Shown here piece by piece: positions 11,143 through 45,040 of a stretch of 46,113 bases of DNA; the first letter of the stretch is position 1; each line of letters begins with the position of its first letter. The DNA comes from a virus. The notes under the pieces are model-generated. The model saw only the letters and a list, made by a program, of their open reading frames with translations, did no database searches and was not told the origin of the DNA. The DNA lies in IMG/VR virus record IMGVR_UViG_3300011247_000029, positions 1-46,113 of that record; one strand, given 5' to 3'. Both the position numbers and the translations under genes were made by a program.

Positions 11143-11161
11143 GGCCAAATCCTTTTGGCAT

Positions 11162-11184
11162 AAAAAAACCCGCACAAGGGCGGG
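11162..11184 (-). terminator. Intrinsic terminator just before the nuclease-like gene
   Basis: On the minus strand CCCGC and GCGGG pair around a short loop and are followed by seven T. The T-run reads into ATGCC and then the ribosome site of the gene at 11142. Without antitermination this would block transcription entering the terL-portal-capsid run. Confidence 0.75.
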
Positions 11185-14756: not shown

Positions 14757-14849
14757 TCTTTCACCTCTCTATAATGTCCCAGCGTATGGGGTAATTATTT
14801 AGCAATTAATTGTTGTTTCATCTTGAATTGTGTGATTAGATAGCCATAC

Positions 14850-14864
14850 TGTACATACAGTACA
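14850..14864. promoter_or_regulatory. Operator-like site between terS and the plus-strand block
   Basis: TGTACATACAGTACA is a match to TGTAC-N5-GTACA. It sits in the divergent intergenic region, 32 bases before the plus-strand gene at 14896 and 94 bases before the terS start. A possible -10 (TATTAA, 14865-14870) abuts it, so it could repress the plus-strand block in the lysogen. Confidence 0.55.
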
Positions 14865-14895: not shown

Positions 14896-15090
14896 ATGAA
14901 AAAGCTACTTATCAATGAGGCCGCAATGGTTCGGGTTGTTCACCCTGTTAAAACGCCAATCCGTAAAGGCCAGATCATCCCCGTAATTAATACAGGCCAC
15001 GGGTTAATGGTGTTTACTAACGCGGCGGGCTTACATGTTGAGCCTAGCGAAGTTGTCCCCGTCGATATGCCATTGCAGTGTGTAATCTAA
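14896..15090 (+). CDS. Small protein of 64 residues, unknown
   Basis: The first gene of the plus-strand block, with ribosome site TTGAGGG. Beta-rich with MVRVVHPVKTPIRKGQIIPV and a 'GHGLMVFTNAAG' turn, resembling a small SH3-like barrel. The function is unknown. Its stop overlaps the ATG of the next micro-gene (TAATG). Confidence 0.65.
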   Translation: MKKLLINEAAMVRVVHPVKTPIRKGQIIPVINTGHGLMVFTNAAGLHVEPSEVVPVDMPLQCVI

Positions 15091-15167
15091 TGCTTACCAC
15101 CATTTCACTCATTGCCCTCATGATCGCGTTTACATTCGCGGTCTTTGGGCCAGCATCGAAGGATTGA
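15090..15167 (+). CDS. Possible 25-residue membrane peptide
   Basis: Starts in a TAATG overlap and is almost entirely hydrophobic (SLIALMIAFTFAVFG) with a short polar tail ending SKD. It has no own ribosome site and would depend on coupling. It could be a true micro-protein or a chance frame. Confidence 0.3.
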   Translation: MLTTISLIALMIAFTFAVFGPASKD

Positions 15168-15172
15168 AGGCC

Positions 15173-15361
15173 ATGAAAAAGTCCAGCCCTACTTATGGTT
15201 ATGAATTCACCGCTACAAAAGGCCGTGATATCCAAACAGAGCGCAATTTTGCTAGTGAAATGAGCGCCATCAAGTCAGCCCGTGAATATATCGCGCTGGG
15301 CTGGTCTGTTGATTTAGTTATGCACACCAACACATCAATGATTGTTAAGACGTTTTATTAA
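15173..15361 (+). CDS. Small protein of 62 residues, unknown
   Basis: Start at 15173 after GAAGGATTGAAGG. It is basic at the N-terminus, then a mixed alpha-beta pattern (SAIKSAREYIALGWSVDLVM). There are no metal-binding or membrane motifs. Confidence 0.6.
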   Translation: MKKSSPTYGYEFTATKGRDIQTERNFASEMSAIKSAREYIALGWSVDLVMHTNTSMIVKTFY

Positions 15362-15370
15362 ATAACCAAT

Positions 15371-15384
15371 GCCCTTGCAGGGGC
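15371..15384 (+). promoter_or_regulatory. TTGCAG-loop hairpin before the DnaJ-domain gene
   Basis: GCCC-TTGCAG-GGGC forms a 4-bp stem with a TTGCAG loop. It ends 6 bases before ACCAAGGAGC, the ribosome site of the DnaJ-domain gene. The same loop and following sequence recur at 16940 and 17253. Confidence 0.5.
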
Positions 15385-15405
15385 TATCACCAAGGAGCAA
15401 AGACC

Positions 15406-15903
15406 ATGAATACCATGCACTATAAAGACGCCGCCAAAATACTTGGCATTAACGGCAACATCACACCCGAGATTGTAAAAGCCGCTTATCGTTCGGCATG
15501 TTCCAAGTACCACCCCGACCGCAACCCCGCAGGGCTTGAGATGATGCAAGCCGTAAACCTTGCCTATGCAACCCTCAAAGACTCAACCCAAACGATTGAA
15601 ATAGATGATTCGGTTATTAACTACGGCGAAGACCTAAACGCCGCGCTCTCTGCAATCATCAACTTGCAGGGGCTTGTCATTGAATTGTGCGGGGCTTGGG
15701 TTTGGGTATCCGGTGACACTAAAACCCATAAGGCCACATTGAAAGAGGCCGGATATAAATGGGCCAGCAAGAAACTAATGTGGTATTTCCGTCCGTCCGA
15801 CTTCCGGTCATTCTCACGCGGCAAAGCATCAATGGATGATATACGCGCCTCTTATGGTTCGCGTTCCGTTCGTGGTCAAGCTCAGCCACGTCTAGCCCGG
15901 TAG
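15406..15903 (+). CDS. DnaJ-domain protein
   Basis: 165 residues. Residues ~4-60 form a J domain with the diagnostic HPD (positions 36-38 in SKYHPDRNP) and the following 'AVNLAYATLKD' helix. J domains stimulate Hsp70 (DnaK) ATPase. The C-terminal part (about 80-150) has Trp-rich segments (WVWVSGDTKTHKATLKEAGYKW) that match no DnaJ substrate-binding domain I recognise. It could direct host DnaK to a phage target such as replication or assembly complexes. Ribosome site AAGGAG, preceded by a hairpin. Confidence 0.85.
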   Translation: MNTMHYKDAAKILGINGNITPEIVKAAYRSACSKYHPDRNPAGLEMMQAVNLAYATLKDSTQTIEIDDSVINYGEDLNAALSAIINLQGLVIELCGAWVWVSGDTKTHKATLKEAGYKWASKKLMWYFRPSDFRSFSRGKASMDDIRASYGSRSVRGQAQPRLAR

Positions 15904-15974
15904 TGGTGCAAGTATTGGGCATCCCTCGCGGGGTGTTCAATGCTGGCAATGCTGCCAACCAAGGAGATAAGACA

Positions 15975-16382
15975 ATGAGCGCATATTTAATGAACCCTAG
16001 CGAGATTGGAACGCTAGCGGCCTATGCAACACAGGACAAGTCCACACAATTTGGTGCCTGTTATAACAAGGGGCTTGACGAATTGTCGGACGTTGCCGAA
16101 TGCCTTGCACTAGCTAACATCGAATCAGTCGAAGACCGCTACAAAGGCACCGAGGGAGCCGAGAAGTTCATGGGCATATCTAACGCCGAGTTTATTAGTC
16201 AATGTCTGCATTCTGCAATTGGTGCCAATCTCACGCCCTATAATCCCGGCCAGATTGCCCGACTTGCTGCAACCTATGACTATCAAGCAAGTGAGCCGGA
16301 TGGCTGGTACGATTCGCGGGCCTTCAAAGTTCTAACCGTAATAAGGGAGCGCCTTGTTAGGGGGTTGCCGGGTTATGATTAA
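15975..16382 (+). CDS. Phage protein of 135 residues, unknown
   Basis: Start at 15975 after AAGGAGATAA. Mostly helical and acidic, with many Ala, Tyr and Asn. Typical segments are DELSDVAECLALANIESVED and ISQCLHSAIGANLTPYNPGQ. No known motif. It overlaps the next gene by 8 bases. The leader carries its own inverted repeat (CATCCCTCGCGGGGTG) rather than the TTGCAG type. Confidence 0.68.
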   Translation: MSAYLMNPSEIGTLAAYATQDKSTQFGACYNKGLDELSDVAECLALANIESVEDRYKGTEGAEKFMGISNAEFISQCLHSAIGANLTPYNPGQIARLAATYDYQASEPDGWYDSRAFKVLTVIRERLVRGLPGYD

Positions 16383-16938
16383 CCGCAAAAACTACCACCG
16401 CAAGGCCAAAGCAATCGCCGGACATTTACCGGGCTGGCGGTTTGATCACCTTAACTCTGACGACTGCCGTTGCCAGTTGATCGGGCCGGACAAGGCACGT
16501 CTAAACCTGTACTTCGACACGTACCGTCAACACTTGTCTGTGTCGGGTTTGTTTGTCAGTCGCTACAAGCGCGGCACAGATAACGCGTGTATGAATTACA
16601 AGCGGCCTAGCAAAGCCCTAGCCGTTGATATCCGCCGCCGTGTCATTGCCGACTACTTGCCACAATTCGCCGCCGATAAATTGCTATATAAGCAGGAGCA
16701 GGAGCAGGAGCAGGCATACAAAGTGTATCGGGATATGGTGTTTCGTGTTTCTAGCTCTAAAAGGTACGGCCAGACTAGCCGAGGCCAAACCGAAAAGCGT
16801 TGCGAGTTTCGGAATTGGGACGCCGATACCAATGTCGATATTTACGGCGAGATTTATGGCGAATCAATTGATTGGCTGAAACTCTCAAACCTTACCAATG
16901 AACAAGCTTTCAAAATCTTTGCCATCATCAACGAATAA
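16375..16938 (+). CDS. Phage protein of 187 residues, unknown
   Basis: Start at 16375, overlapping the previous stop and preceded by GGGGG. Basic N-terminal half (INRKNYHRKAKAIAGHLPGW) and a strand-rich 'RLNLYFDTYRQHLSVSGLF' region that might be a nucleic-acid-binding fold. A short KQEQEQEQ tract near residue 105 comes from three GGAGCA repeats in the DNA and is a likely replication-slippage site. The C-terminus is acidic. The function is unknown. Confidence 0.65.
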   Translation: MINRKNYHRKAKAIAGHLPGWRFDHLNSDDCRCQLIGPDKARLNLYFDTYRQHLSVSGLFVSRYKRGTDNACMNYKRPSKALAVDIRRRVIADYLPQFAADKLLYKQEQEQEQAYKVYRDMVFRVSSSKRYGQTSRGQTEKRCEFRNWDADTNVDIYGEIYGESIDWLKLSNLTNEQAFKIFAIINE

Positions 16939-16939
16939 C

Positions 16940-16953
16940 GGCCTTGCAGGGCC
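16940..16953 (+). promoter_or_regulatory. TTGCAG-loop hairpin before the 90-residue zinc protein
   Basis: GGCC-TTGCAG-GGCC, a 4-bp stem with the same TTGCAG loop as at 15371. It is followed within 4 bases by the ribosome site ACCAAGGAGC. Confidence 0.5.
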
Positions 16954-16968
16954 ACCAAGGAGCAAACC

Positions 16969-17241
16969 ATGTCATACCCCTACCGATGTAGTAAGGCCGC
17001 TTGCAGGAAGCGTGTAAGCCTACCGCGCAAGGTCGAGGACTATGTTTACACTAAGAAGTGTCCAGCGTGTAAGTGTGAGTCGCTAAAGTTAGACATGGCC
17101 CACCGTGCCGAGTCAAAGCGCAACCGTTGCGGGTGTGACTCTAAACCGTGGCCACACCGTAAAGGCTCGAATCCATTTTGCATTCATACAACCGCTACGC
17201 CTACCGATGATGATTTTCAGGTGTTTTATAGTGCCGCATAA
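16969..17241 (+). CDS. Cys-rich zinc-binding protein
   Basis: 90 residues with CSKAACRK, KKCPACKCESLK, RNRCGCDSKPWPH and a later C..H. The pairs (C..C and C.AC) plus His resemble zinc ribbons that bind nucleic acid. The whole protein is strongly basic except for the acidic C-terminal DDDFQ. It lies in the plus-strand block after a hairpin leader. The specific partner is unknown. Confidence 0.65.
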   Translation: MSYPYRCSKAACRKRVSLPRKVEDYVYTKKCPACKCESLKLDMAHRAESKRNRCGCDSKPWPHRKGSNPFCIHTTATPTDDDFQVFYSAA

Positions 17242-17276
17242 AAAAACCCCACACCGCTTGCAGGCGGTAAAGCGTG
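17241..17276 (-). terminator. Leftward terminator that also carries the third TTGCAG hairpin
   Basis: On the minus strand CCCCAC pairs with GTGGGG around an inner CTTTACCGC...GCGGT hairpin, followed by seven T. It would end leftward transcription of the tail cassette about 230 bases after its last stop. On the plus strand the inner hairpin ACCGC-TTGCAG-GCGGT (17253-17268) lies in the leader of the gene at 17305 and has the same loop as at 15371 and 16940. It seems to serve both strands. Confidence 0.65.
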
Positions 17277-17304
17277 GGGCCGTCAATATCACCAAGGAGC
17301 GAAC

Positions 17305-17526
17305 ATGACTAATAAGAATATAGCACCATTCACCCTGACAATCATCTGCGCGTGGGGTCAAGTCTTTACCTTCCGCCGTTCATCATTGGGAAAGCTAATG
17401 AAGTACGCGCTTGAAATGGAAACCGCTCACCGTATCGTTGAAAAAGGCGAAACCGTGATATGGGAAAGGGACGGGTTAACTAATACTAACCTTTTGCCAA
17501 GTCGTTGCCGTGTCGGTAGGGTCTAA
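17305..17526 (+). CDS. Small protein of 73 residues, unknown
   Basis: Ribosome site ACCAAGGAGC before the ATG. Strand-rich start (FTLTIICAWGQVFTF), basic centre and a helix (KYALEMETAHRIVEK). Its 3' end overlaps the convergent tail gene by 51 bases, so leftward readthrough gives antisense RNA here. Confidence 0.6.
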   Translation: MTNKNIAPFTLTIICAWGQVFTFRRSSLGKLMKYALEMETAHRIVEKGETVIWERDGLTNTNLLPSRCRVGRV

Positions 17527-18738
17527 CCACCCTTGATCGGGGTTTGCTGGCTCAATAATTACGTTATCAACACTGCCCCTAAATGTAACACTGGCTTGAA
17601 ATGTTAGTAGCGTATTACCCGCACCGGCCACAATGGTTTCGGTATAGGTTCCGTCCGCGTCTCTATCCGTACCCGAGACCGCCGAACCACCGCCGAACCG
17701 TGGCTTCACTCTTCCGCTAGTCCTATCCGACAGCGTGAATGTTACCGTGTAGCTTTCACCCTCTGTGAAACTATAGGCTGTGTCAATTGTGCTTGAACCG
17801 TTGGCATTATGAGTCGCCACACCGTTGGCGATTACCCAATTATAGGGAAGCGTCCAAGTTCCATCATCACTATCAAACGTGTACGTGGTTAATGCTGCGC
17901 TTTCAGTCGCCCATGTTGCCGCTGTGTCGGTCGTATCGTTCCAACTACCATATAAAATAATGGCACCTGAACTTGTCGCGGCGTTTGCCTGCATAGTCGA
18001 TACACCAACAATACCCTTGCCACCCGAACCCGCGCCCGTGGCCGTGCTGGCCGCTGGTGTGCCGCTGCCGGTGATATTGCGAACCGTTACCGCCGTAACC
18101 GTTGCGCCCTGTGCTTGAGGTGTACCACCACCCGCTACATTCCCTTCAACAATGCCGCCGATGGTCTCAGTCGTTGCCGTGGTGGCTTGTGGTGTGCCGG
18201 TGCCGGTTATGTTTCGAACCGCTACGCCCGCCGACGTTGCCGTTGTGGCTGTCGCTGTGCCGGTGCCGGTTTTGGTGCCAGAGCTGGCCGTTGTCGCCGT
18301 TGCTCTCGATGCCTTGGGGGCATCAATAAACCAACCGCTAAACCAACCCGGAGAATCAAGTGGGGGAAGCCACCCACGGCGCGAACCGTCGATTGTAATA
18401 ATGCGAACACCAGCACCGCTAGTGGTGGCCGTTGCCGCTTGTGGTGTGCCGCTGCCTGATACGCCAGTTACGCCAACACCGCTTGCTGTGGCTGTTACTG
18501 CTGTCGGTGTGCCGGTGCCGGTATGCGTAGCCGCCGATGTTGGGGTTTTTGCTGCGAATCTTTTATAGGCCGCTCTCGGTACACCCGAAATACCTAGTCG
18601 TGTGACTGCACCAACATTGCCAATGCCACTTGCGGTTGCAGTTGTTACGTCAGGCTTATTGCTTTGGCCAATAACTAATTTAGTTGTGCCGTAGCGTTCC
18701 CGAGGTACGCCAAATAGGCCGAGCCGGGTTGTAGCCAT
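17476..18738 (-). CDS. Repeat-rich tail/virion protein with C-terminal beta domain
   Basis: 420 residues. Residues 1-55 hold two related LG.(F/S)GVPR..Y motifs (RLGLFGVPRERY and RLGISGVPRAAY). Residues ~70-265 consist of about nine imperfect repeats of the type GTGTPQA.TAT..G.GV.NI, nearly free of charge. The C-terminal ~150 residues (from SWNDTTDTAATW) look like a jelly-roll carbohydrate-binding domain (YNWVIANGVATHN, then SYTVTFTLSDRTSGR). Such a plan fits a fibrous virion protein with a binding tip. It is the last gene of the tail cassette. Confidence 0.72.
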   Translation of the reverse strand: MATTRLGLFGVPRERYGTTKLVIGQSNKPDVTTATASGIGNVGAVTRLGISGVPRAAYKRFAAKTPTSAATHTGTGTPTAVTATASGVGVTGVSGSGTPQAATATTSGAGVRIITIDGSRRGWLPPLDSPGWFSGWFIDAPKASRATATTASSGTKTGTGTATATTATSAGVAVRNITGTGTPQATTATTETIGGIVEGNVAGGGTPQAQGATVTAVTVRNITGSGTPAASTATGAGSGGKGIVGVSTMQANAATSSGAIILYGSWNDTTDTAATWATESAALTTYTFDSDDGTWTLPYNWVIANGVATHNANGSSTIDTAYSFTEGESYTVTFTLSDRTSGRVKPRFGGGSAVSGTDRDADGTYTETIVAGAGNTLLTFQASVTFRGSVDNVIIEPANPDQGWLDPTDTATTWQKVSIS

Positions 18739-18741
18739 GAC

Positions 18742-19125
18742 TTACGCCGATGCGGAATAGGTAAAGCTGGTTATTGATACAGTATCGCCAACACCAACAG
18801 AAACGGATGAAAGCTCGATATCACCGCCGCCACTGGTAGCCGTTACCGTACCCCGAAACACCTCGCCATTGTCGCGGTCTTGAAACTTGAACAACGCGGC
18901 TGTGCCACCCGTTGCGCTTGAATCGTTTGTTATTGCGGCGGCTGTGATTGTACCGGCTGCCGCTGCGCCGAATGCCGTTGCCGATAGTGCGAGCGTTGCG
19001 ACCTCAACATCGCCCGATGTCATAATGACTAGATCGCCACCGGCATCGGTGGTGCCAGCATTGCAGGCGGCATCAATGGCATCGGCTAAAGTGTTTCGTA
19101 GTGCAGTTACGTGTGTGAGGGCCAT
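18742..19125 (-). CDS. Small beta-rich tail-cassette protein
   Basis: 127 residues, Ala/Thr/Gly-rich, beginning MALTHVTALRNTLADAIDAA. Later strands (EVATLALSATAFG, EVFRGTVTATSG, TVSITSFTYSA) suggest a small beta-sandwich that makes a virion or fibre component. Ribosome site AAGGA lies within the end of the preceding micro-gene. Similar proteins occur in other phage tail cassettes with no known role. Confidence 0.72.
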   Translation of the reverse strand: MALTHVTALRNTLADAIDAACNAGTTDAGGDLVIMTSGDVEVATLALSATAFGAAAAGTITAAAITNDSSATGGTAALFKFQDRDNGEVFRGTVTATSGGGDIELSSVSVGVGDTVSITSFTYSASA

Positions 19126-19238
19126 ATATATTCCTTGTCCTTCTCTGAAAGACTGTCAATAATTTCTTGCGGGAGTGTTTCGGGGTTGTCTACTTTGGGG
19201 TTGCCGTCTTTGTCACGCACAAGGGCATATCCCTTCAT
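19107..19238 (-). CDS. Micro-gene of 43 residues in the tail cassette
   Basis: Opens MKGYALVRDKDGNPKVDNPE, then LPQEIIDSLSEKDKEYIW. It fills the gap between two tail genes and overlaps the downstream start by 19 bases. The composition is protein-like. No ribosome site is seen before its ATG. Confidence 0.45.
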   Translation of the reverse strand: MKGYALVRDKDGNPKVDNPETLPQEIIDSLSEKDKEYIWPSHT

Positions 19239-19251
19239 CGTTGTTGCTGCA

Positions 19252-19881
19252 TCAGCTAATGACAAAGGTATCGCCGCCGCTTGCTGCTTCTGTGAGAGCT
19301 GTAACCGTGAGAGTTTTGGTAGAGCCTACATAATCAAGAATGTCTGTTGACTGTCCGAGTAGAACACCCGAGGTGAAGGTGATAATTCGTCCGTTGAAAT
19401 GGTCATCGGTCGCTTCACTAAGAGTGGTAACGATTGACGTGGTGGTACAACCTGCATCAGCCGCGCCCGACACAAGCCCCAACGCGCCCGCTTCCAAATT
19501 ATCCGCTGCGGTTGCGCTTGAACTAATTTGCGTTAGATCAACTTGAAGCAAGTCGGTAGAGAAAAACGAATCAAATACATTAGCCGGGACGACTGAATAT
19601 TCTTTCCATACCGGCAAGGCACCTGTTGCAACAATCTGTACGATAAATGTTCCAAGGGTGCCGGTGTCAGTTGTCGTAAATGGCACCTGATACCAACCAT
19701 CTGCATCGTGGGTTGTTGTGGGACTTGCTTCCGAAGTCTGAGCAAACGCGGCACCGGCTTTTGAAATTTGTATGTCTGCTTGCGCGATTGTTAGCCCGGT
19801 CTCTGCCGTTACCCCATCTGTTGAATCAACAAAAGGGCCACACCTGCTTATAAAAACAGTGCTTTGTTTAAGAAACTGCAT
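19252..19881 (-). CDS. Tail/fibre protein with N-terminal domain shared with the 22.98-kb gene
   Basis: 209 residues. The start MQFLKQSTVFISRCGPFVDS is common for phage virion proteins of this type. Residues ~30-70 (ADIQISKAGAAFAQT...DGWYQVPF) match ADVKLSKDGAAFANI...LGWYKWTP in the protein starting at 22982, so the two are paralogous. The C-terminal half (DDHFNGRIITFTSGVLLGQS) is another beta domain of a kind seen in tail fibres and base-plate uppers. A terminator sits immediately before it and its ribosome site is GGAG. Confidence 0.75.
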   Translation of the reverse strand: MQFLKQSTVFISRCGPFVDSTDGVTAETGLTIAQADIQISKAGAAFAQTSEASPTTTHDADGWYQVPFTTTDTGTLGTFIVQIVATGALPVWKEYSVVPANVFDSFFSTDLLQVDLTQISSSATAADNLEAGALGLVSGAADAGCTTTSIVTTLSEATDDHFNGRIITFTSGVLLGQSTDILDYVGSTKTLTVTALTEAASGGDTFVIS

Positions 19882-19897
19882 ACTTTACTCCGGGCAT

Positions 19898-19919
19898 AAA
19901 AAAACCCGCGAGAAGCGGG
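19898..19919 (-). terminator. Intrinsic terminator inside the tail cassette
   Basis: On the minus strand CCCGC-TTCTC-GCGGG is followed by seven T and then ATGCCCGGAG. The last four bases are the ribosome site of the next gene. The element has the same form as the one at 23000-23022. Confidence 0.78.
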
Positions 19920-19944
19920 CTTGTAGTTTTGTTTATTGTCGGTA

Positions 19945-21117
19945 TTAGTTGTTGTTCAACTGCATGAGATGGTTTGTGAAAATCGGAACACTAGATGTTG
20001 CTGTAGGCCATTGCACAACAGAAAAACGATACTCTCTTGTGTAATAAGTGCTGCCCCTGCTCAGGGTTGCCGTTGTTGCCGCCGTTAATCTTACGCCCAT
20101 CAACGCCTGATTCGACCTGTTGCCATTGTTAGGCACAGCACATTCACCCATAACCGATGCAGTTGTCAGTGTGACAGAATTGACGGTTTCCGCCCAAGTT
20201 TCGGGGCCATCGTCTAATATCCCTGTTGCCGCCCGCGTACCACTAAGATGCTCGACGACCATTCCACCACTTGTATCTTCAACCACCCATGCAACCGAAA
20301 ACGGCGGTGTAGTGTTAATCAGTTTTGCATAAAAAGTAAGTTGGCTTGTGCTTGATATCCAAACCTTGTGGTTGCCTCTTCTAACGCCGACGGCGCTGCC
20401 ACTATCAATCCTAATCTGTGGATGAATGAAAGCCTGTGTGGTCGCACCTAATGTTGTCCCTAGTGTTTCGGTTTCTTCCGTTGCTGCCGTTGTGTAAGTG
20501 TGTGTGACACGCTCAACACGCCAATTTGAACCTGTAAACTCAACCACCGCAAGAGAAACAACCGATGTCCTTGTGATTGTATCGCCGCGTACCATTCTTG
20601 CAACATCGCTTGCGCCGATCCATTCAGAAGTGAACGCAAACTCTTCCAGTTCTACATCGGCGGACGCGCCCGATGTGCAACCTTGACTTGTTATAAACGG
20701 CAAAACATCAGCATCGGTTGCAACCCCGCTAACCGTACTTGTATCCTTTGTTACATCACTTGCACCGAAGCTCATTAACTCTTCATGCAACACCTTTATT
20801 TCATAAGCACCACCAGCCGAACCGACATACTCGATAATTTCCCACTGTATTTTTTCTGCGTTGACTGGTGTCCCTTGGCGACTGAATGTTATAGATGTCA
20901 ATAAATTGCTAGGGTTTGTAATCCAAACTCTAGTGTGGGAGCTATTGCCGGGGTATGTCTTATTAATACCGTCGCCAGCATAACCATTGCCGGTGATTCG
21001 TATGAACGCTTTGCTAGTCGCCGACGGTGCCGTGTACTCGCTTCCCGCCGTGATCGTGATAGACGAGCCACTCGAAGCAATGGTTGCTTCACCACGCTGT
21101 ATATTAAAGTCTGCCAT
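19945..21117 (-). CDS. Tail protein with internally duplicated beta domain
   Basis: 390 residues, acidic and beta-rich. Two halves look alike: residues ~38-110 (IRITGNGYAGDG, SHTRVWITNPSNLLTSITF, EKIQWEIIEYVG) and residues ~230-300 (IRIDSGSAVGVRRGNHKVWI, then VAWVVEDTSG). This indicates a domain duplication. No enzymatic motif is seen. It is probably a structural virion protein close to the tailspike, whose stop abuts its start. Confidence 0.72.
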   Translation of the reverse strand: MADFNIQRGEATIASSGSSITITAGSEYTAPSATSKAFIRITGNGYAGDGINKTYPGNSSHTRVWITNPSNLLTSITFSRQGTPVNAEKIQWEIIEYVGSAGGAYEIKVLHEELMSFGASDVTKDTSTVSGVATDADVLPFITSQGCTSGASADVELEEFAFTSEWIGASDVARMVRGDTITRTSVVSLAVVEFTGSNWRVERVTHTYTTAATEETETLGTTLGATTQAFIHPQIRIDSGSAVGVRRGNHKVWISSTSQLTFYAKLINTTPPFSVAWVVEDTSGGMVVEHLSGTRAATGILDDGPETWAETVNSVTLTTASVMGECAVPNNGNRSNQALMGVRLTAATTATLSRGSTYYTREYRFSVVQWPTATSSVPIFTNHLMQLNNN

Positions 21118-22659
21118 CTAGGCTATCTCCGCGCCTTTAGTTCCCAAGTGATCGTCTCGGGCAGTTCCAATTAAATCCATTGTTGCTAAATCAAACGGGG
21201 CCGGGTCGGTGTTAGTGTAAAGCACGTTCCCTGAGTAAAGGTTTAAATAATTTCCCGCTAGTGATGTCTGATCGGAAAGTATTACATTATTGTAAACATC
21301 AACCTCATTGCCGGTGCTGTAATTACTATTTGCAATTCTTCCGTAAACAGAATTTCTGTAATATTTAATGCCGGTCATGTAATCTGCCGTACCTGACCGG
21401 CCATTATATAAAACCTTATCTGACAAATTGTCATACCCAAGTTTGCAATAACAAACCTCAACATTATTTGTATAATCAGTTCCGCTTGTTGCTCCGTATG
21501 TTTCTATCAACGCTACGTGTGTGCCTGATATATCCAACACGCTGGCGTATGAAACACACCCATCGACGTGCGTTCCTTTCAAAAAGATTGGGACTCCACC
21601 CACATTGCCGTTATGTGCATGTATGTTTTCAAACGCAAAATTATTTAAACCGTACCCACCCACCATTTGAACTGGCAAATCTGTAATGCCACCGCAATCA
21701 TAATCACAATCAGAAATGAAAATATCGTTGTGGCCCTCTCTAGTATTAGCATCTCCAACGTGGAAATAAACAATACATCGCTGATTATCACCGCCGACAC
21801 TGCCTCTATACGGCGTGACAAAATTTAATTGCCATAATGCTTCACGGTACGTTTTCTGAAAGTGCATAAATACGCGGGTATTGGCATTAGGGTTATACCT
21901 AGCGCAATCAAGTATTGTGAACCCAGCACAAAAGATGTCGTATGCCGTGGCCGTTAAATGAGCAAACTGGCCTTGGTTCGACGCATCCATAACTATCGTT
22001 TCGTCGGGGTGATTCTGCCACGACATTGGATAACCTGCCGTTCCAAATAATAATTCGTTGTCCATAACCAGTGTTCCGCCACGGACATACACAATCTCGT
22101 TGCCAACTGAATTTGTATAGACTTCTTCGACGTTACTTAATGGGTCTGTAAGCGTTCCTGTACCACCTGCCGAAACATTCGGATCAAGAAATAAAAACCC
22201 GGTGTACGTTGGCGTTACTGTCCACGTTAAATTTATCGTAGACCCTGCTTGATCTGTGACTCTAATTGTTACGTCTTCTGCGGGGCCATCTGTTACCGGC
22301 GTCCATTTCACTACGCGATAATCTGCACCGAAAACCCACCTATCAATTAAGAATGTAAGTGTGTTCCCAATAGTCATGCCCGTGGGGCCGACTATCACAT
22401 CATAGCGATAAGGTTTCTCGCCACCCCTTACCCCTACAGGAATTTGATACTCAACACCCGGATAGGCGTTTCTATGCCGCGCATAACTATTTGTTGTGGC
22501 ATCCGGCAACGGGTATACGGCGGCTAAATCAAAATGCCCTTCATAGTGGCCCGCGTCTAATTTCCAGCTACGTTCGCCACCACCGCCCGTGGTAGCAAGT
22601 GCGCCACGATACCCTGTGTTCTCTCCACGGTTTTGACCCGTGTTCTCACCGATACCCAT
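21118..22659 (-). CDS. Tailspike-like right-handed beta-helix protein
   Basis: 513 residues. N-terminus is Gly/Arg-rich (virion attachment). Residues ~60-155 look like an Ig-like domain (YQIPVGVRGGEKPYRYDVIV, then NLTWTVTPTY). From ~165, 'DPNVSAGGTGTLTDPLSNVEEV' is the usual entry to a pectate-lyase-type beta-helix, followed by many short repeating strands (GNEIVYVRGGTLVMD, NNVEVCYCKLGYDN, TGNEVDVYNNVIL). Such proteins bind and often cut host polysaccharide. A catalytic site is not identifiable by eye. It overlaps the upstream gene at ATG/stop. Confidence 0.8.
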   Translation of the reverse strand: MGIGENTGQNRGENTGYRGALATTGGGGERSWKLDAGHYEGHFDLAAVYPLPDATTNSYARHRNAYPGVEYQIPVGVRGGEKPYRYDVIVGPTGMTIGNTLTFLIDRWVFGADYRVVKWTPVTDGPAEDVTIRVTDQAGSTINLTWTVTPTYTGFLFLDPNVSAGGTGTLTDPLSNVEEVYTNSVGNEIVYVRGGTLVMDNELLFGTAGYPMSWQNHPDETIVMDASNQGQFAHLTATAYDIFCAGFTILDCARYNPNANTRVFMHFQKTYREALWQLNFVTPYRGSVGGDNQRCIVYFHVGDANTREGHNDIFISDCDYDCGGITDLPVQMVGGYGLNNFAFENIHAHNGNVGGVPIFLKGTHVDGCVSYASVLDISGTHVALIETYGATSGTDYTNNVEVCYCKLGYDNLSDKVLYNGRSGTADYMTGIKYYRNSVYGRIANSNYSTGNEVDVYNNVILSDQTSLAGNYLNLYSGNVLYTNTDPAPFDLATMDLIGTARDDHLGTKGAEIA

Positions 22660-22982: not shown

Positions 22983-22999
22983 GGTGTTTCTCCGGGCAT

Positions 23000-23022
23000 A
23001 AAAAAACCCGCCAAGTGGCGGG
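23000..23022 (-). terminator. Terminator between Q and the tail cassette (tR'-like)
   Basis: On the minus strand CCCGCC-ACTT-GGCGGG is followed by seven T. It lies about 70 bases downstream of the candidate late promoter and just before the first tail gene. Its position matches the lambda late leader terminator that Q antitermination overcomes. Confidence 0.78.
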
Positions 23023-27105: not shown

Positions 27106-27135
27106 AATGTACTCTGAGTACACACGCCAAGTCAA
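27106..27135 (-). promoter_or_regulatory. Leftward early promoter of the cro-replication operon
   Basis: On the minus strand TTGACT (27135-27130) and TACATT (27111-27106) are 18 bases apart. The operator TGTACTCTGAGTACA lies between and over the -10, so a bound repressor would block polymerase. Confidence 0.65.
27108..27122. promoter_or_regulatory. Operator O(left) TGTACTCTGAGTACA
   Basis: A 15-bp palindrome around a central T, identical to the operator in the rightward promoter at 27949. It is a binding site for the repressor and/or Cro-like protein. Confidence 0.75.
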
Positions 27136-27940: not shown

Positions 27941-27970
27941 TTGACAACTGTACTCTGAGTACATTATAAA
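27941..27970 (+). promoter_or_regulatory. Rightward early promoter
   Basis: TTGACA (27941-27946) and TATAAA (27965-27970) with 18-bp spacing (17 if TTATAA is used). Operator O(right)1 fills the spacer, as at the leftward promoter. It drives the genes from 27978 on. Confidence 0.75.
27949..27963. promoter_or_regulatory. Operator O(right)1 TGTACTCTGAGTACA
   Basis: Identical to O(left) at 27108, located between -35 and -10 of the rightward promoter. Confidence 0.75.
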
Positions 27971-40175: not shown

Positions 40176-42812
40176 CTATTGATTTACAAGTTGTGCTTCT
40201 GGATTTGCAAGGCTATAGCCACTATCGCCGGAACCGGGTTCCGTACCTTCCAACAAGGCATCAGCCATCACGCCAATAACACCGACAGGGTTTTGAGTGA
40301 ATTGAGTTTTCCCCGTACCAAGGAAGAACTTTGCCGCGCCTTCGCTTTTTAGAACGTGCGCCAATAGCGTATTCACACCCAGCTTGTGAACGCCGGATAG
40401 GAATGTTGATGGATGTTTCAATGAGGTGATGGCCTGCGCCGCCTCAAGTGATACGCCGGGATCACGTCCACGGCCTGTCACGATGTCGAGATACGACTTA
40501 AGCCCTTGCAGCCTTACCCGATCATCTTTGGTCAGTACCCGTGTCCAAATACCCTTCACTTTGTACTCGGCGATCTTGGTGGCCATTGCACCCTTATCAA
40601 GCGTGGGAATACCCATCTTGCCCGGTGCAATTGAAGACTCTACGAAGTCCTCATACGCGCCATTGCGGAGCTGTTGCCGACCACCCGGCCCGACCTGCCC
40701 CAACAACTTTTGCATGGATGCCTCGGACAAATCCTTGCGACCAAGAATAGCGTGAAGCGCATTCCTACCTTCAAGTTGTTGCGTGGCAATGTTGTGAAGT
40801 GGTGAGTTTCGCAAGTCGTCCAGTTTCCCGGCGACCTTCAATAATTGTTTCTCTTCGCCCTTCGGAAAGAACACGCGGTATCCTTCTGGATCAAGACGAC
40901 GATAGTTATTGACCGCATTCGCCGCACCATTTTCATCCATCAGGATTTGCGCTTGCACACCCTTTCGGAATCGCAACACATTCTTTGGCCCAGCCTTACC
41001 CGATTGGATAACTTTCAACACGTCGCCGGTCATCTGATTGGGTTTACTGGCGGCTAACACCAACTGTCCATTGTTCTCGGACGACATCATTGTTCTAATC
41101 GACTGTTGCCCCATCACGTCAAAACGTGCCTTGGCTTTTTCCGTCGCGCCGACAATGGCCTTAACAAAACCCTCTGAACCATTCACCGGCTTACGCATTG
41201 CATCCGATAACGCGCCATACAAATTTCTGGCTTGTCGGGTGTTTATGTTTGCCTGCCACGGCATATCGTCAATCACTGAACCCAAGCGGGTGCGAAGTTG
41301 TTTTATCACTTCATAGTTGACTTGCCCCGAGGATAATTTCTCGATGTCATTAATCACATTCAACAATGGGCCATGAGGTGTGTCGGCTACGTTGAGAGGT
41401 GTTGACGGTTTCGGTGGTTCAATTCTGTTGGGTCGTCTGAAAATGGTTTTCCCATCAACCACTTTTGGTGTGCCTTGAACAAGCGTTGGTTCGTTGGCCT
41501 TACCTATGCCTAGAACAGTCTCTTTGATTTGTTGACCAGTACGCATAACACCCGATAAATCGAACATGGGGTTTTCTTTTTGTGCCATGTCGTCGGCTTG
41601 TTGGTATGCACGGGTTACGCCTTTCTTTGCACCCTCAAGATATGTTTTGATAGCCTTGGTGCCGGACTCTTGCCCTTGACGTGGAGTAACCCGACTGACT
41701 TTGTTATTCAGTGCGTTGTAAGCGTTTTTATATTCTGCCTTAGCAATGCTAACGAACTTCTGCCCGGACTTGTGCATCGTGCTGTTGATGCCTTCTTGCC
41801 CAGCCTTAAGCGCGGATTGCTGTTGCGAGATAAGATGATGTTGTGCGGCCTTGCTGGTCGATTCAGCTTGTGCGCCAATCCGATTAAGCACCATGTTCTC
41901 AGGGGCCATCTGGTGAAGCATTGGATTAGTGACTTCACCACCACGGGCTTTCATCTTATTAACATCATCAAGCAATGTTCTAACTTCGGGGTGTGGGTTC
42001 ATATAACCACGGCCTGTCGCGGCATTAAATCCCTTTGTGGCCAATCCGCCAGCACCCACCATTGCCGCCGTTATCGCACCTTGTTTAAGGGCGTCGGTGG
42101 CCACTTCTGCACCGGGCTGTAACTGGTCGCCACGCAATGCTTCAATACCTTCCTTACCTGTATGAGACAATGCAGCGGTGGCACCTGTAGCGAGCATTTG
42201 AATAGGAATAGACGCACCCCCGGTCATAATGCCAGCGGCAATCGTTGGGCCAGCAATCAAAGCAGGGCCACCCATGTCGGCAACATCACCCATTGAGAAG
42301 CCTTGATCCTCAACCGACTTCCACTTTTCGCGGGGATCGTCCCAATTTTCTTTGAACATCAGTCGAGTAGTAGCAAGTTCAAAAGTATCGCGTCCATGTC
42401 CGCCACGCGCACCGAGTCCCTTATCTCTTCCGCCTGTAACCTGTCGGCCTTTTGGAATAGGCACACGAAACATCGCGCCGTTATGATATTTTTGAGAGAA
42501 CTTGTTTTTCACTTCCTCGTCGTTATCCGCCATGCTGTAATTCAGACGGTCTTTAAATGAGGCACCCGTGGTCATGTCCACCATATCCGAAGGTATGTTC
42601 GTCACTTTAGACACTCGCTGTGCTAGCGAATCGGCTGTACCGGGCAATGGATGTTGTTTGTAGAATTCGCTTCTCGCCGCGCCTACGTCACCGCCTTTCA
42701 CTTGAGGCGCAACCACTGACGAGAAATATTCAGATTGTGCATTTTGTCTTTGCGAGGGCGTGAGCGATTGATACCCCTCAGATGCGGCAACCTCCGACCA
42801 TTTCTTAGGCAT
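40176..42812 (-). CDS. Internal virion / ejection protein (878 residues)
   Basis: Start at 42812 (TAATG overlap). The start MPKKWSEVAASEGYQSLTPS, then YFSSVVAPQVKGGD is common in internal virion proteins of podoviruses. A hydrophobic segment at ~185-225 (GPALIAGPTIAAGIMTGGAS) could insert in the membrane. The rest is long, helical and Lys/Gln-rich. It is probably ejected with DNA to help cross the cell envelope. No lysozyme motif is seen. The largest gene here. Confidence 0.75.
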   Translation of the reverse strand: MPKKWSEVAASEGYQSLTPSQRQNAQSEYFSSVVAPQVKGGDVGAARSEFYKQHPLPGTADSLAQRVSKVTNIPSDMVDMTTGASFKDRLNYSMADNDEEVKNKFSQKYHNGAMFRVPIPKGRQVTGGRDKGLGARGGHGRDTFELATTRLMFKENWDDPREKWKSVEDQGFSMGDVADMGGPALIAGPTIAAGIMTGGASIPIQMLATGATAALSHTGKEGIEALRGDQLQPGAEVATDALKQGAITAAMVGAGGLATKGFNAATGRGYMNPHPEVRTLLDDVNKMKARGGEVTNPMLHQMAPENMVLNRIGAQAESTSKAAQHHLISQQQSALKAGQEGINSTMHKSGQKFVSIAKAEYKNAYNALNNKVSRVTPRQGQESGTKAIKTYLEGAKKGVTRAYQQADDMAQKENPMFDLSGVMRTGQQIKETVLGIGKANEPTLVQGTPKVVDGKTIFRRPNRIEPPKPSTPLNVADTPHGPLLNVINDIEKLSSGQVNYEVIKQLRTRLGSVIDDMPWQANINTRQARNLYGALSDAMRKPVNGSEGFVKAIVGATEKAKARFDVMGQQSIRTMMSSENNGQLVLAASKPNQMTGDVLKVIQSGKAGPKNVLRFRKGVQAQILMDENGAANAVNNYRRLDPEGYRVFFPKGEEKQLLKVAGKLDDLRNSPLHNIATQQLEGRNALHAILGRKDLSEASMQKLLGQVGPGGRQQLRNGAYEDFVESSIAPGKMGIPTLDKGAMATKIAEYKVKGIWTRVLTKDDRVRLQGLKSYLDIVTGRGRDPGVSLEAAQAITSLKHPSTFLSGVHKLGVNTLLAHVLKSEGAAKFFLGTGKTQFTQNPVGVIGVMADALLEGTEPGSGDSGYSLANPEAQLVNQ

Positions 42813-43948
42813 TACTGACCACCCCAAAGATGTGAGTATGATTCTTTCGAATTCTTCTTGTGCGCCCCGCGAGTTCTGTTAAGAGATTCCATCGACTTTT
42901 TCTTGCCGTTCTCAATAGCCTCCCGGACGACATTCAATGCTTCCAGCGCTTGGTCAACATTGGTCATCAGATTCAAACCACGATTCACGGCGTCAACGCG
43001 CTCCATATCTCTGTCGGAATACCGGCCCGATGTGTCGCCGGTAACACGCGGGATCAATTGCCCGGTCAACATCCGAATACCTGTGCGAACTTTGTGTTCA
43101 TCGCCCGACTGTAGATTCTCTGCCATCATGCGGCCCGGATCACCGAACTGCCCAGCAAGGCCCGCCAAGTTCTCACCAATGGCACCACGCAAACCGACAG
43201 CACCCGGATTGGCCGTCAACCCTTTAATGACTTCATCAATTGAACCAAGGGCCAAATCATCGCCGTCCAACGTCTTCATGATGTCGCCAACTTGACTGCG
43301 GGTACGACCACCAAGTTTCGACATTTCATCAGTCTGTACGGATGGCACCCGTACCAAGTTATGCGACTGAAACATGTTGTCAGGGATAGCCTTATCGGTT
43401 CCACTGAGCATGTACTTCCGCGTTTTATTATTAAACGTAATAGGTATCTGATTGTCGGCATTGTCCTTGCCCACCAATACAAAATTGGATTCAGTGCCTA
43501 CCGGGTCTTTTGCATCACGCTTTAATTTATCCGCCTGTTGCACACGAAGGGGGTCAGTCCGATTAACCAAACCCGTCATTGCCGGATTACCAACATCGGT
43601 ATCAAGCAAATTCGTTTGTGCGGTTTTCATATCCATAGTGCCGCCCAATAGCCCGCGCTTCACTTGTCCTTTCACGCCGGATGAATAGCTTTCACTCTGC
43701 CCAGCCATTAACCGATTCGCCTCAGTGGACTCCATGCCACGAACACCCATCAAGTCACCCAACAAACCACGATCAGGTTTGAAGTTAGGGAGGTTTTGCG
43801 ACAAGCCGCCCCTCGTTTTTAATATCCCACCACTTTCAGGTAGACCACTTGTACGACGCATCTGATCACGCTCAAGCGCAAGCGAAAGCTCTTCTTTGCG
43901 CTTTGCGTTGTACTCTTTATTCAGCCAACTTGAAATATCAAAAGCCAT
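42812..43948 (-). CDS. Ejection protein, middle (378 residues)
   Basis: MAFDISSWLNKEYNAKRKEE opens a charged helical protein rich in Lys/Arg/Gly (ERDQMRRTSGLPESGG). The C-terminal ~150 residues are helical with 'VDAVNRGLNLMTNVDQALEA' followed by LNVVREAIENGKKK. No catalytic motif. It lies between two ejection-type genes, so it is likely an internal or injected protein. Its start is 16 bases from the previous stop. Confidence 0.7.
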   Translation of the reverse strand: MAFDISSWLNKEYNAKRKEELSLALERDQMRRTSGLPESGGILKTRGGLSQNLPNFKPDRGLLGDLMGVRGMESTEANRLMAGQSESYSSGVKGQVKRGLLGGTMDMKTAQTNLLDTDVGNPAMTGLVNRTDPLRVQQADKLKRDAKDPVGTESNFVLVGKDNADNQIPITFNNKTRKYMLSGTDKAIPDNMFQSHNLVRVPSVQTDEMSKLGGRTRSQVGDIMKTLDGDDLALGSIDEVIKGLTANPGAVGLRGAIGENLAGLAGQFGDPGRMMAENLQSGDEHKVRTGIRMLTGQLIPRVTGDTSGRYSDRDMERVDAVNRGLNLMTNVDQALEALNVVREAIENGKKKSMESLNRTRGAHKKNSKESYSHLWGGQ

Positions 43949-43963
43949 TTCGATTCACCATTG

Positions 43964-45040
43964 TTAGAACTTTTTAGCGCCGCCTAACTGGATAGGGGCA
44001 AAGATACCGTTAGTAGCCGGAGTGGCCCCGGTGCCGGAACTCGTCGAACTGCCGCTACTCGATGACGTGCTGGTGTTCTGACTGCCGCCATAACTATTGC
44101 TAGTGTTCAAGCTGCCGCCCGTGTTGTACCCGGTATTTTGTGAACCACCCGTGGAGTAACCCAAATTCTCACTACCATTAAGGCTAGTGTTGCTGCCCAT
44201 AGATTCCATAATCGGGTTGCCGTAGATGTCCTTTTGCATATTCATTGTTTGCCACGGGTTCATTAACTGTTCGGATTCAATACCGCGCATTTCATTACCC
44301 ATTCCCTGCATCGCACCGGCACCGGCAAAGCCAAGGTCACTAATGGCGGGCATACGATTAACCGCATTATTCATCGAGTCCATGCCTTGGTTGTAGGCAT
44401 TGTTTCCCATGTTGGTGTAAAGGCCAGACATAGCCCGTGCGAATGGATTAGCGGCCTTTTGAAGCCCCTTGTTATACGTGCCTTCGCCCTTGTTGGTTGT
44501 CCACTGTCCTGCGGCTACGCCTTCATTTCTAAGCGAACCCATCGTGTCGCGGAATTGGTCGTTCAATCCTTCCGCCGCATAATCGGTCGCCGCCATCAGG
44601 TTCGGGTTATTGAACATGATGTTGGGATTCGCCAAATAATCATTGGCCTGTGACATCTTGCCAAACAGGCTATTCGAATTCGCTGCTGCGTTGGCACCCA
44701 TGCCCCACCCTGCGGTTTGGTATGGGTTCACGTTGGCGAAAGTTGATCCGCCATTTTGCGCTTGATCCCACATTTGTTGCAGGTAAGGCATTTGCTGTTG
44801 ATTAACAAAAGACGACGTATCGCCCGTGCTTGCACCAAAGCTAGAGCCTTGGCTTCCGCCTTCGTTAAAGCTGGTGCCTTGGTTGGCTCCATCACTAAAA
44901 CTGGAGCCAAAACTGTTGGCTCCATTAAACGACGTACCTTGGCTATCGGATTGACTTTGGTTAGTAGAGGAACTGCTCGAACTACCAGCCTTGCCACCAC
45001 CCCCGAACGCAAAATCCCTTATACCGCTTAATAAGCCCAT
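43964..45040 (-). CDS. Ejection protein, Ser/Gly/Asn-rich (358 residues)
   Basis: Opens MGLLSGIRDFAFGGGGKAGS. The first ~80 residues are Ser/Gly/Gln-rich repeats (GTSFN.G...GSSF). The centre is Ala/Asn/Met-rich and helical (AAEGLNDQFRDTMGSLRNEG). The C-terminal ~70 hold a second repeat run (GYSTGGSQNTGYNTGG-type). Such composition is usual for internal virion proteins that unfold for ejection. It lies after the tail-hub and adaptor-like genes. Confidence 0.7.
   Translation of the reverse strand: MGLLSGIRDFAFGGGGKAGSSSSSSTNQSQSDSQGTSFNGANSFGSSFSDGANQGTSFNEGGSQGSSFGASTGDTSSFVNQQQMPYLQQMWDQAQNGGSTFANVNPYQTAGWGMGANAAANSNSLFGKMSQANDYLANPNIMFNNPNLMAATDYAAEGLNDQFRDTMGSLRNEGVAAGQWTTNKGEGTYNKGLQKAANPFARAMSGLYTNMGNNAYNQGMDSMNNAVNRMPAISDLGFAGAGAMQGMGNEMRGIESEQLMNPWQTMNMQKDIYGNPIMESMGSNTSLNGSENLGYSTGGSQNTGYNTGGSLNTSNSYGGSQNTSTSSSSGSSTSSGTGATPATNGIFAPIQLGGAKKF

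Follow-up and report, generated by a model that had tools for sequence, protein, structure and literature searches.

The three hairpins with an identical TTGCAG loop in this phage stand at gene junctions of a constant operon architecture, in which a stop codon is followed by a hairpin and then by a Shine-Dalgarno (SD) sequence. The reading we favour, to which we give an even chance, is that these are ordinary intercistronic hairpin-plus-SD junctions in the small-gene rightward operon of a temperate phage, with a copied core common to two or three of them. The window, by which we mean the whole stretch of DNA analysed, is an IMG/VR virus record of 46,113 bases. It encodes an integrase, a terminase, a portal, a scaffold and a major head protein, and therefore represents a temperate tailed phage or prophage. 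All three hairpins belong to a run of small rightward genes (14896-17526) with leftward blocks on either side, in which genes were called by eye using ORFs, SDs and overlaps.

The earlier note had placed three TTGCAG-loop hairpins upstream of ATG codons, and we found its coordinates and sequences to be exact, on the plus strand. The first, J1 (GCCC-TTGCAG-GGGC, 15371-15384, +), lies 9 nt past the upstream stop codon at 15359-15361 and precedes the SD ACCAAGGAGC (15389-15398, +) of a gene at 15406-15903 (+), which encodes a DnaJ-domain protein of 165 aa (Pfam PF00226, E = 4.7e-11). J2 (GGCC-TTGCAG-GGCC, 16940-16953, +) begins 1 nt past the stop codon (16936-16938) of the gene at 16375-16938 (+), for which a search of IMG/VR returned no relatives. 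It is followed by the SD ACCAAGGAGC (16954-16963, +) of a gene at 16969-17241 (+), whose product is a Cys-rich (zinc-ribbon-like) protein of 90 aa (phrog_17384, E = 6.3e-7) with relatives at other loci (below); bacterial genomes searched for this protein yielded none. J3 (17247-17279, +) is situated between this Cys-rich gene and the gene at 17305-17526 (+), whose SD, again ACCAAGGAGC, is at 17291-17300 (+). It consists of an inner hairpin, ACCGC-TTGCAG-GCGGT (17253-17268), and an outer stem, CCCCAC/GTGGGG. Measured from the stem, ACCAAGGAGC is 4 nt away at J1, 0 nt at J2 and 22 nt at J3 (11 nt when counted from the outer stem of J3). As had been described, each hairpin is succeeded by a start codon: all three are placed between the stop of a plus-strand gene and the next SD, with ACCAAGGAGC and an ATG following.

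The operon has a fourth such junction, overlooked in the earlier note. The 71-nt gap at 15904-15974 holds strong hairpins and ACCAAGGAG, with other loops: a hairpin (J1b, 15911-15944, +) with a TCGC loop and a stem of about 15 bp, whose leader has a minimum free energy below that of shuffled sequences (p = 0.004-0.005), and a second, GGCA-ATGC-TGCC (15945-15956, +), four bases 5′ of AAGGAG. The SD ACCAAGGAG (15958-15966, +) belongs to the gene at 15975-16382 (+). Consequently, every one of the four junctions of at least 30 nt within 15361-17305 has a hairpin directly 5′ of ACCAAGGAG and three of the four have the TTGCAG loop, so the hairpin, and not the loop, is the constant feature. In the order stop codon, hairpin, strong SD ACCAAGGAG and ATG, the hairpin would serve as punctuation that sets neighbouring cistrons apart, end from beginning, and shields the upstream 3′ end, providing insulation and stabilisation, and it would stop upstream RNA from covering the SD. 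We infer that punctuation together with mRNA protection is the most likely role. The hairpins may plausibly also tune translation or mRNA stability, as originally suggested.

Sequence shared between the junctions bears on how they may have arisen. Exact CTTGCAGG occurs five times in the window, always on the plus strand and always within 15374-17264; its flanks are complementary at the three intergenic copies and not at the two copies inside ORFs (15663 and 17000). J1 and J2 have CCTTGCAGGG (ten bases) and CACCAAGGAGCAAA in common, while TATCACCAAGGAGC is common to J1 and J3, as copying predicts. Accordingly, the core CTTGCAGG together with ACCAAGGAGC most probably spread through the copying of junction segments within this one phage genome, after which the arms would have diverged yet stayed complementary. 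A DNA-level palindromic operator or recombination site, instead of an RNA element, would account for copies confined to one 2-kb stretch and for the two extra CTTGCAGG inside ORFs. However, the three hairpin copies share one orientation and all lie at gene junctions, and variation falls in the arms, the part that a dimeric DNA-binding protein would recognise; we consider such a site highly improbable and rejected the DNA operator because the arms vary and not the centre.

The grouping of these loops is not what composition alone would give. TTGCAG is not enriched in the window (29 sites vs 26.5 expected), nor are hairpins with 6-nt loops overall (143 vs 142 in shuffles). Nevertheless, when any loop of 6-8 nt on stems of at least 4 bp was counted, at least three identical loops within 2 kb were seen in 1 of 600 whole-window shuffles and in none of 5,000 local shuffles. 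Identical loops are therefore clustered beyond chance, although J1 and J2 do not count as independent cases. Separately, the idea of TTGCAG as a generally favoured hairpin loop was rejected.

J3 has a second identity on the opposite strand. Read leftward (17236-17279, −), it was identified by a terminator scan as an intrinsic terminator with a TTTTTTT tail (CCCCACGCTTTACCGCCTGCAAGCGGTGTGGGGTTTTTTTATGC), and the leftward gene at 17476-18738 converges on it; both this role and the outer stem of J3 had been overlooked. It belongs to a repeated terminator family of the phage: the 14-nt GCATAAAAAAACCC, which includes the T-tract, is common to four places (11158, 17236, 19894 and 22996), and at 19894 and 22996 a longer repeat, CTCCGGGCATAAAAAAACCCGC, constitutes a leftward terminator with the SD of the next leftward gene directly after it. 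As a separate observation, the leftward terminators at 11158-11173, 17236-17249, 19888-19909 and 22990-23011 have GGGTTTTTTTATGC in common, and two of the four run directly into CGGAG, which is the SD for the leftward gene that follows, making a terminator-plus-SD junction repeat on the minus strand. For J3, a predicted terminator on the opposite strand appears to be the simpler explanation, and under our preferred reading J3 would also end converging leftward transcription. The likeness to intrinsic (Rho-independent) terminators in phage gaps, namely a GC-rich stem and a tail of seven T, is limited to the minus strand of J3, whereas J1 and J2 have no T-tract on either strand.

These properties raise the alternative of a partial coincidence, in which J3 does no more than terminate the opposing leftward operon, J1 and J2 are one short repeat present twice, and the loop is common to J3 by chance. 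The canonical minus-strand terminator of a repeated family fits this account, and so do the absence of homologues, the ease with which shuffling reproduces the covariation counts (below) and the 10-nt core common to J1 and J2, which is already nearly self-complementary. It has more difficulty with the rarity of the loop clustering in shuffles (1/600 and 0/5,000), with the TATCACCAAGGAGC that J3 shares with J1, and with complementarity that extends past the common core, comprising two outer pairs each in J1 and J2 and four in J3. We regard a partial coincidence as possible but rather doubtful.

The earlier note had also proposed stem covariation around a fixed loop. Formally this is present: in an ungapped alignment of J1-J3, three pairs vary on both sides, another does not vary and the outermost exists in J3 only; pairing holds in 86.7% of cells, and the covariation score of 0.80 compares with 0.17 or less in slid controls. 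This supports the original interpretation in part, as the alignment consists of three sequences from one genome and, owing to this small number, the count of covarying pairs was reached by 58 of 500 shuffles. Further, J1 and J2 have CCTTGCAGGG in common, so that their stem is partly shared sequence and the two do not represent independent covariation.

Searches for further copies gave little to add to this. Covarying homologues had been expected from a covariance-model search, and their absence was held to speak against the element; they were largely absent. The model built from J1-J3 found no fourth copy in the whole window. Across 178 kb of loci, both related and other, its sole notable match, with E-values that are rough for a model of 16 positions, was L133, a locus fetched by the loop pattern, and covariance-model matches in pattern-selected loci are expected from the selection itself. 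An Rfam scan of the window returned no match above the gathering score, and a DNA search against phage records found none. Within IMG/VR, 30 inspected matches to CTTGCAGG followed by CACCAAGGAG included no comparable junction hairpin. A scan of 2.9 million contigs for CCTTGCAGGG followed by an SD and ATG gave 56 places with no excess of stem-forming flanks, five sites having at least two further pairs vs about 3.5 expected by chance. The CGCTTGCAGGCG scan produced a single real hairpin, that of L133, from an unrelated phage: AAATAGCCCGC-TTGCAG-GCGGGCTATTT, then AAAAAGGAG and ATG. Its opposite strand carries a T-tract, making L133 terminator-like in the manner of J3. This hairpin has an 11-bp stem and is flanked by a stop codon on its 5′ side and by the SD of the following gene on its 3′ side (730-860 of the locus, minus strand).

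These results weigh on the proposal that the UUGCAG loop is bound by a phage or host protein that governs how the operon mRNA is translated or degraded. A fixed loop on changing stems would fit loop-specific binding, and T4 gp43, a phage protein that binds a hairpin upstream of an RBS, offers a precedent (PMC3014915). The T4 gene 43 translational operator likewise has a loop conserved across phages; here, by contrast, there are no homologues, and several unrelated genes are involved and not one autoregulated gene. Moreover, the fourth junction of the operon does not have the TTGCAG loop, neither Rfam, relatives nor IMG/VR supplied a match or covarying homologue, and in context the hairpins of J1 and J2 form only marginally. 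Beyond the identity of the loops, then, the suggestion of recognition by a protein gained no support, and we judge a protein-binding element of this kind to be quite unlikely. Even less probable, in our estimate, is a phage-encoded regulon in which the unrelated small genes downstream have their expression set by one factor, or by loop-loop contacts, at the common UUGCAG loop, which is self-complementary if G-U pairs count.

Predicted folding differs markedly between the three sites. As an isolated hairpin J1 has a free energy of −6.7 kcal/mol; in context its pairing probability is 0.07-0.13, because UGCCCUUG pairs with CAAGGAGCA across the SD. The J1 leader is no more structured than shuffles (p = 0.21), while its SD is predicted to be covered (0.25 unpaired), more closed than in 93% of shuffled leaders. 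The J2 hairpin forms with a probability of 0.99 in the leader alone and is displaced once the coding sequence is included; direct reading points to a possible competitor, CGGCCTT with AAGGCCG near 16993-16999. The openness of the J2 SD (0.55) is as in shuffles. J3 is predicted to be stable (−17.7 kcal/mol, with a pairing probability of about 1 whatever the context) and its SD to be 0.80 unpaired vs 0.53 in shuffled leaders, with 4% of shuffles as high. The exposed SD of J3 counts for our favoured reading of ordinary hairpin-plus-SD junctions; counted against it are the J1 hairpin that does not form in the model, the unexceptional structure of the J1 leader, the J2 hairpin that forms only without the coding sequence, and the covered SD of J1.

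The J1 prediction invites a different interpretation, a bistable translation switch in which pairing between CUUG in the hairpin core and CAAG in the SD makes the hairpin and an SD-covering structure mutually exclusive. Consistent with such a switch are the minimum-energy structure of J1, which pairs UGCCCUUG with CAAGGAGCA and leaves its SD less exposed than most shuffled leaders do, and CUUG being invariant in all three cores. Yet chance would readily produce four nucleotides that match an SD, and the SDs of J2 and J3 are as open as shuffles or more so. With the SD closed at J1, as expected at J2 and open at J3, a common switch mechanism is not supported; we think it unlikely, although in the folding model J1 alone could act as a switch.

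Among published systems, the SAS/ESAS repeats (Start-Associated Sequences and extended SAS) of Cluster K mycobacteriophages are the nearest analogue, by resemblance of arrangement, as class membership fails on several features. These are short repeats found in one phage group at the RBS of some of the small non-structural genes, some of them preceded closely by an inverted repeat, and their function is unknown (PMC3203893). The likeness lies in a near-identical RBS-covering repeat within one genome, here (A)CCAAGGAG, which recurs at four junctions within 2 kb. SAS is found in 11-19 copies per genome and is common to several phages (PMC3203893), compared with 3-4 copies in one genome here. ESAS has conserved arms of 17 bp around a variable spacer, and its authors saw little evidence of RNA pairing and argue against an RNA hairpin (PMC3203893), whereas here a constant loop is combined with varying, paired arms. 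Nor is the repeat of this phage conserved past what an SD needs while being absent elsewhere: CACCAAGGAGCRAA..CATG is a common phage start signal, found at 25 loci that are mostly plausible gene starts in many unrelated phages. Conservation at orthologous genes was likewise not seen, the corresponding junctions in L032-L041, which are distant relatives only, having no TTGCAG hairpin. Similar gene-start motifs with further conserved sequence upstream, also of unknown function, occur in Microbacterium cluster EF phages (PMC7302621). If functional, the hairpins would add a non-actinobacteriophage case to these poorly understood start-associated repeats, with a conserved loop in place of conserved arms, and would suggest that phages repeatedly spread ready-made gene-junction cassettes. 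In their present state, the data mainly show that a terminator and two copied junctions can mimic an RNA family.

Other phages help to put these junctions into context. Relatives of the DnaJ-like gene are found at L032-L037, where they are 36-63% identical, and in the podovirus record MW202738, where the gene lies near the terminase genes on the strand opposite to them, as in this phage; those of the Cys-rich gene are at L038-L040. Across loci related by the portal, DnaJ-like and Cys-rich genes, homologous junctions had no TTGCAG hairpin, and 545 TTGCAG sites in 650 kb included one chance case. In L038 and L040, a long hairpin of another kind stands 5′ of the SD of the Cys-rich gene. In unrelated phages, strong hairpins were found upstream of the CACCAAGGAGC start signal in 3 of 19 distinct leaders (L136, L140 and L157) vs 0.44 expected. 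At L135 (2620-2930), a junction of about 35 nt, CCCTCGCAGCCTAACCACCCACACCAAGGAGCAAA, is repeated before two adjacent genes and includes the end of the upstream gene, in what appears from its sequence to be a duplicated gene junction in another phage. In MW202738 (2520-3950 of our locus L073, minus strand), genes past the DnaJ-like gene have a start-associated motif, roughly AGGAATCATCATCATG, with hairpins in some of the gaps.

Elsewhere in the window, the leftward regions 40176-45040 (−) and 17476-22659 (−) encode large proteins of 883, 378, 358, 420, 390 and 513 aa, none of which had a Pfam match; a PHROGs search of the same proteins, leaving out that of 358 aa, also gave none. An inverted repeat, TACTGTA-CA-TACAGTA (14847-14862), in the gap where the small-gene cluster and the gene for the terminase small subunit diverge, is a candidate operator. 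Finally, a 15-bp near-palindrome, TGTACTCTGAGTACA, is present in two copies (27108-27122 and 27949-27963) in a region of divergent leftward and rightward genes, and these are candidate repressor operators.
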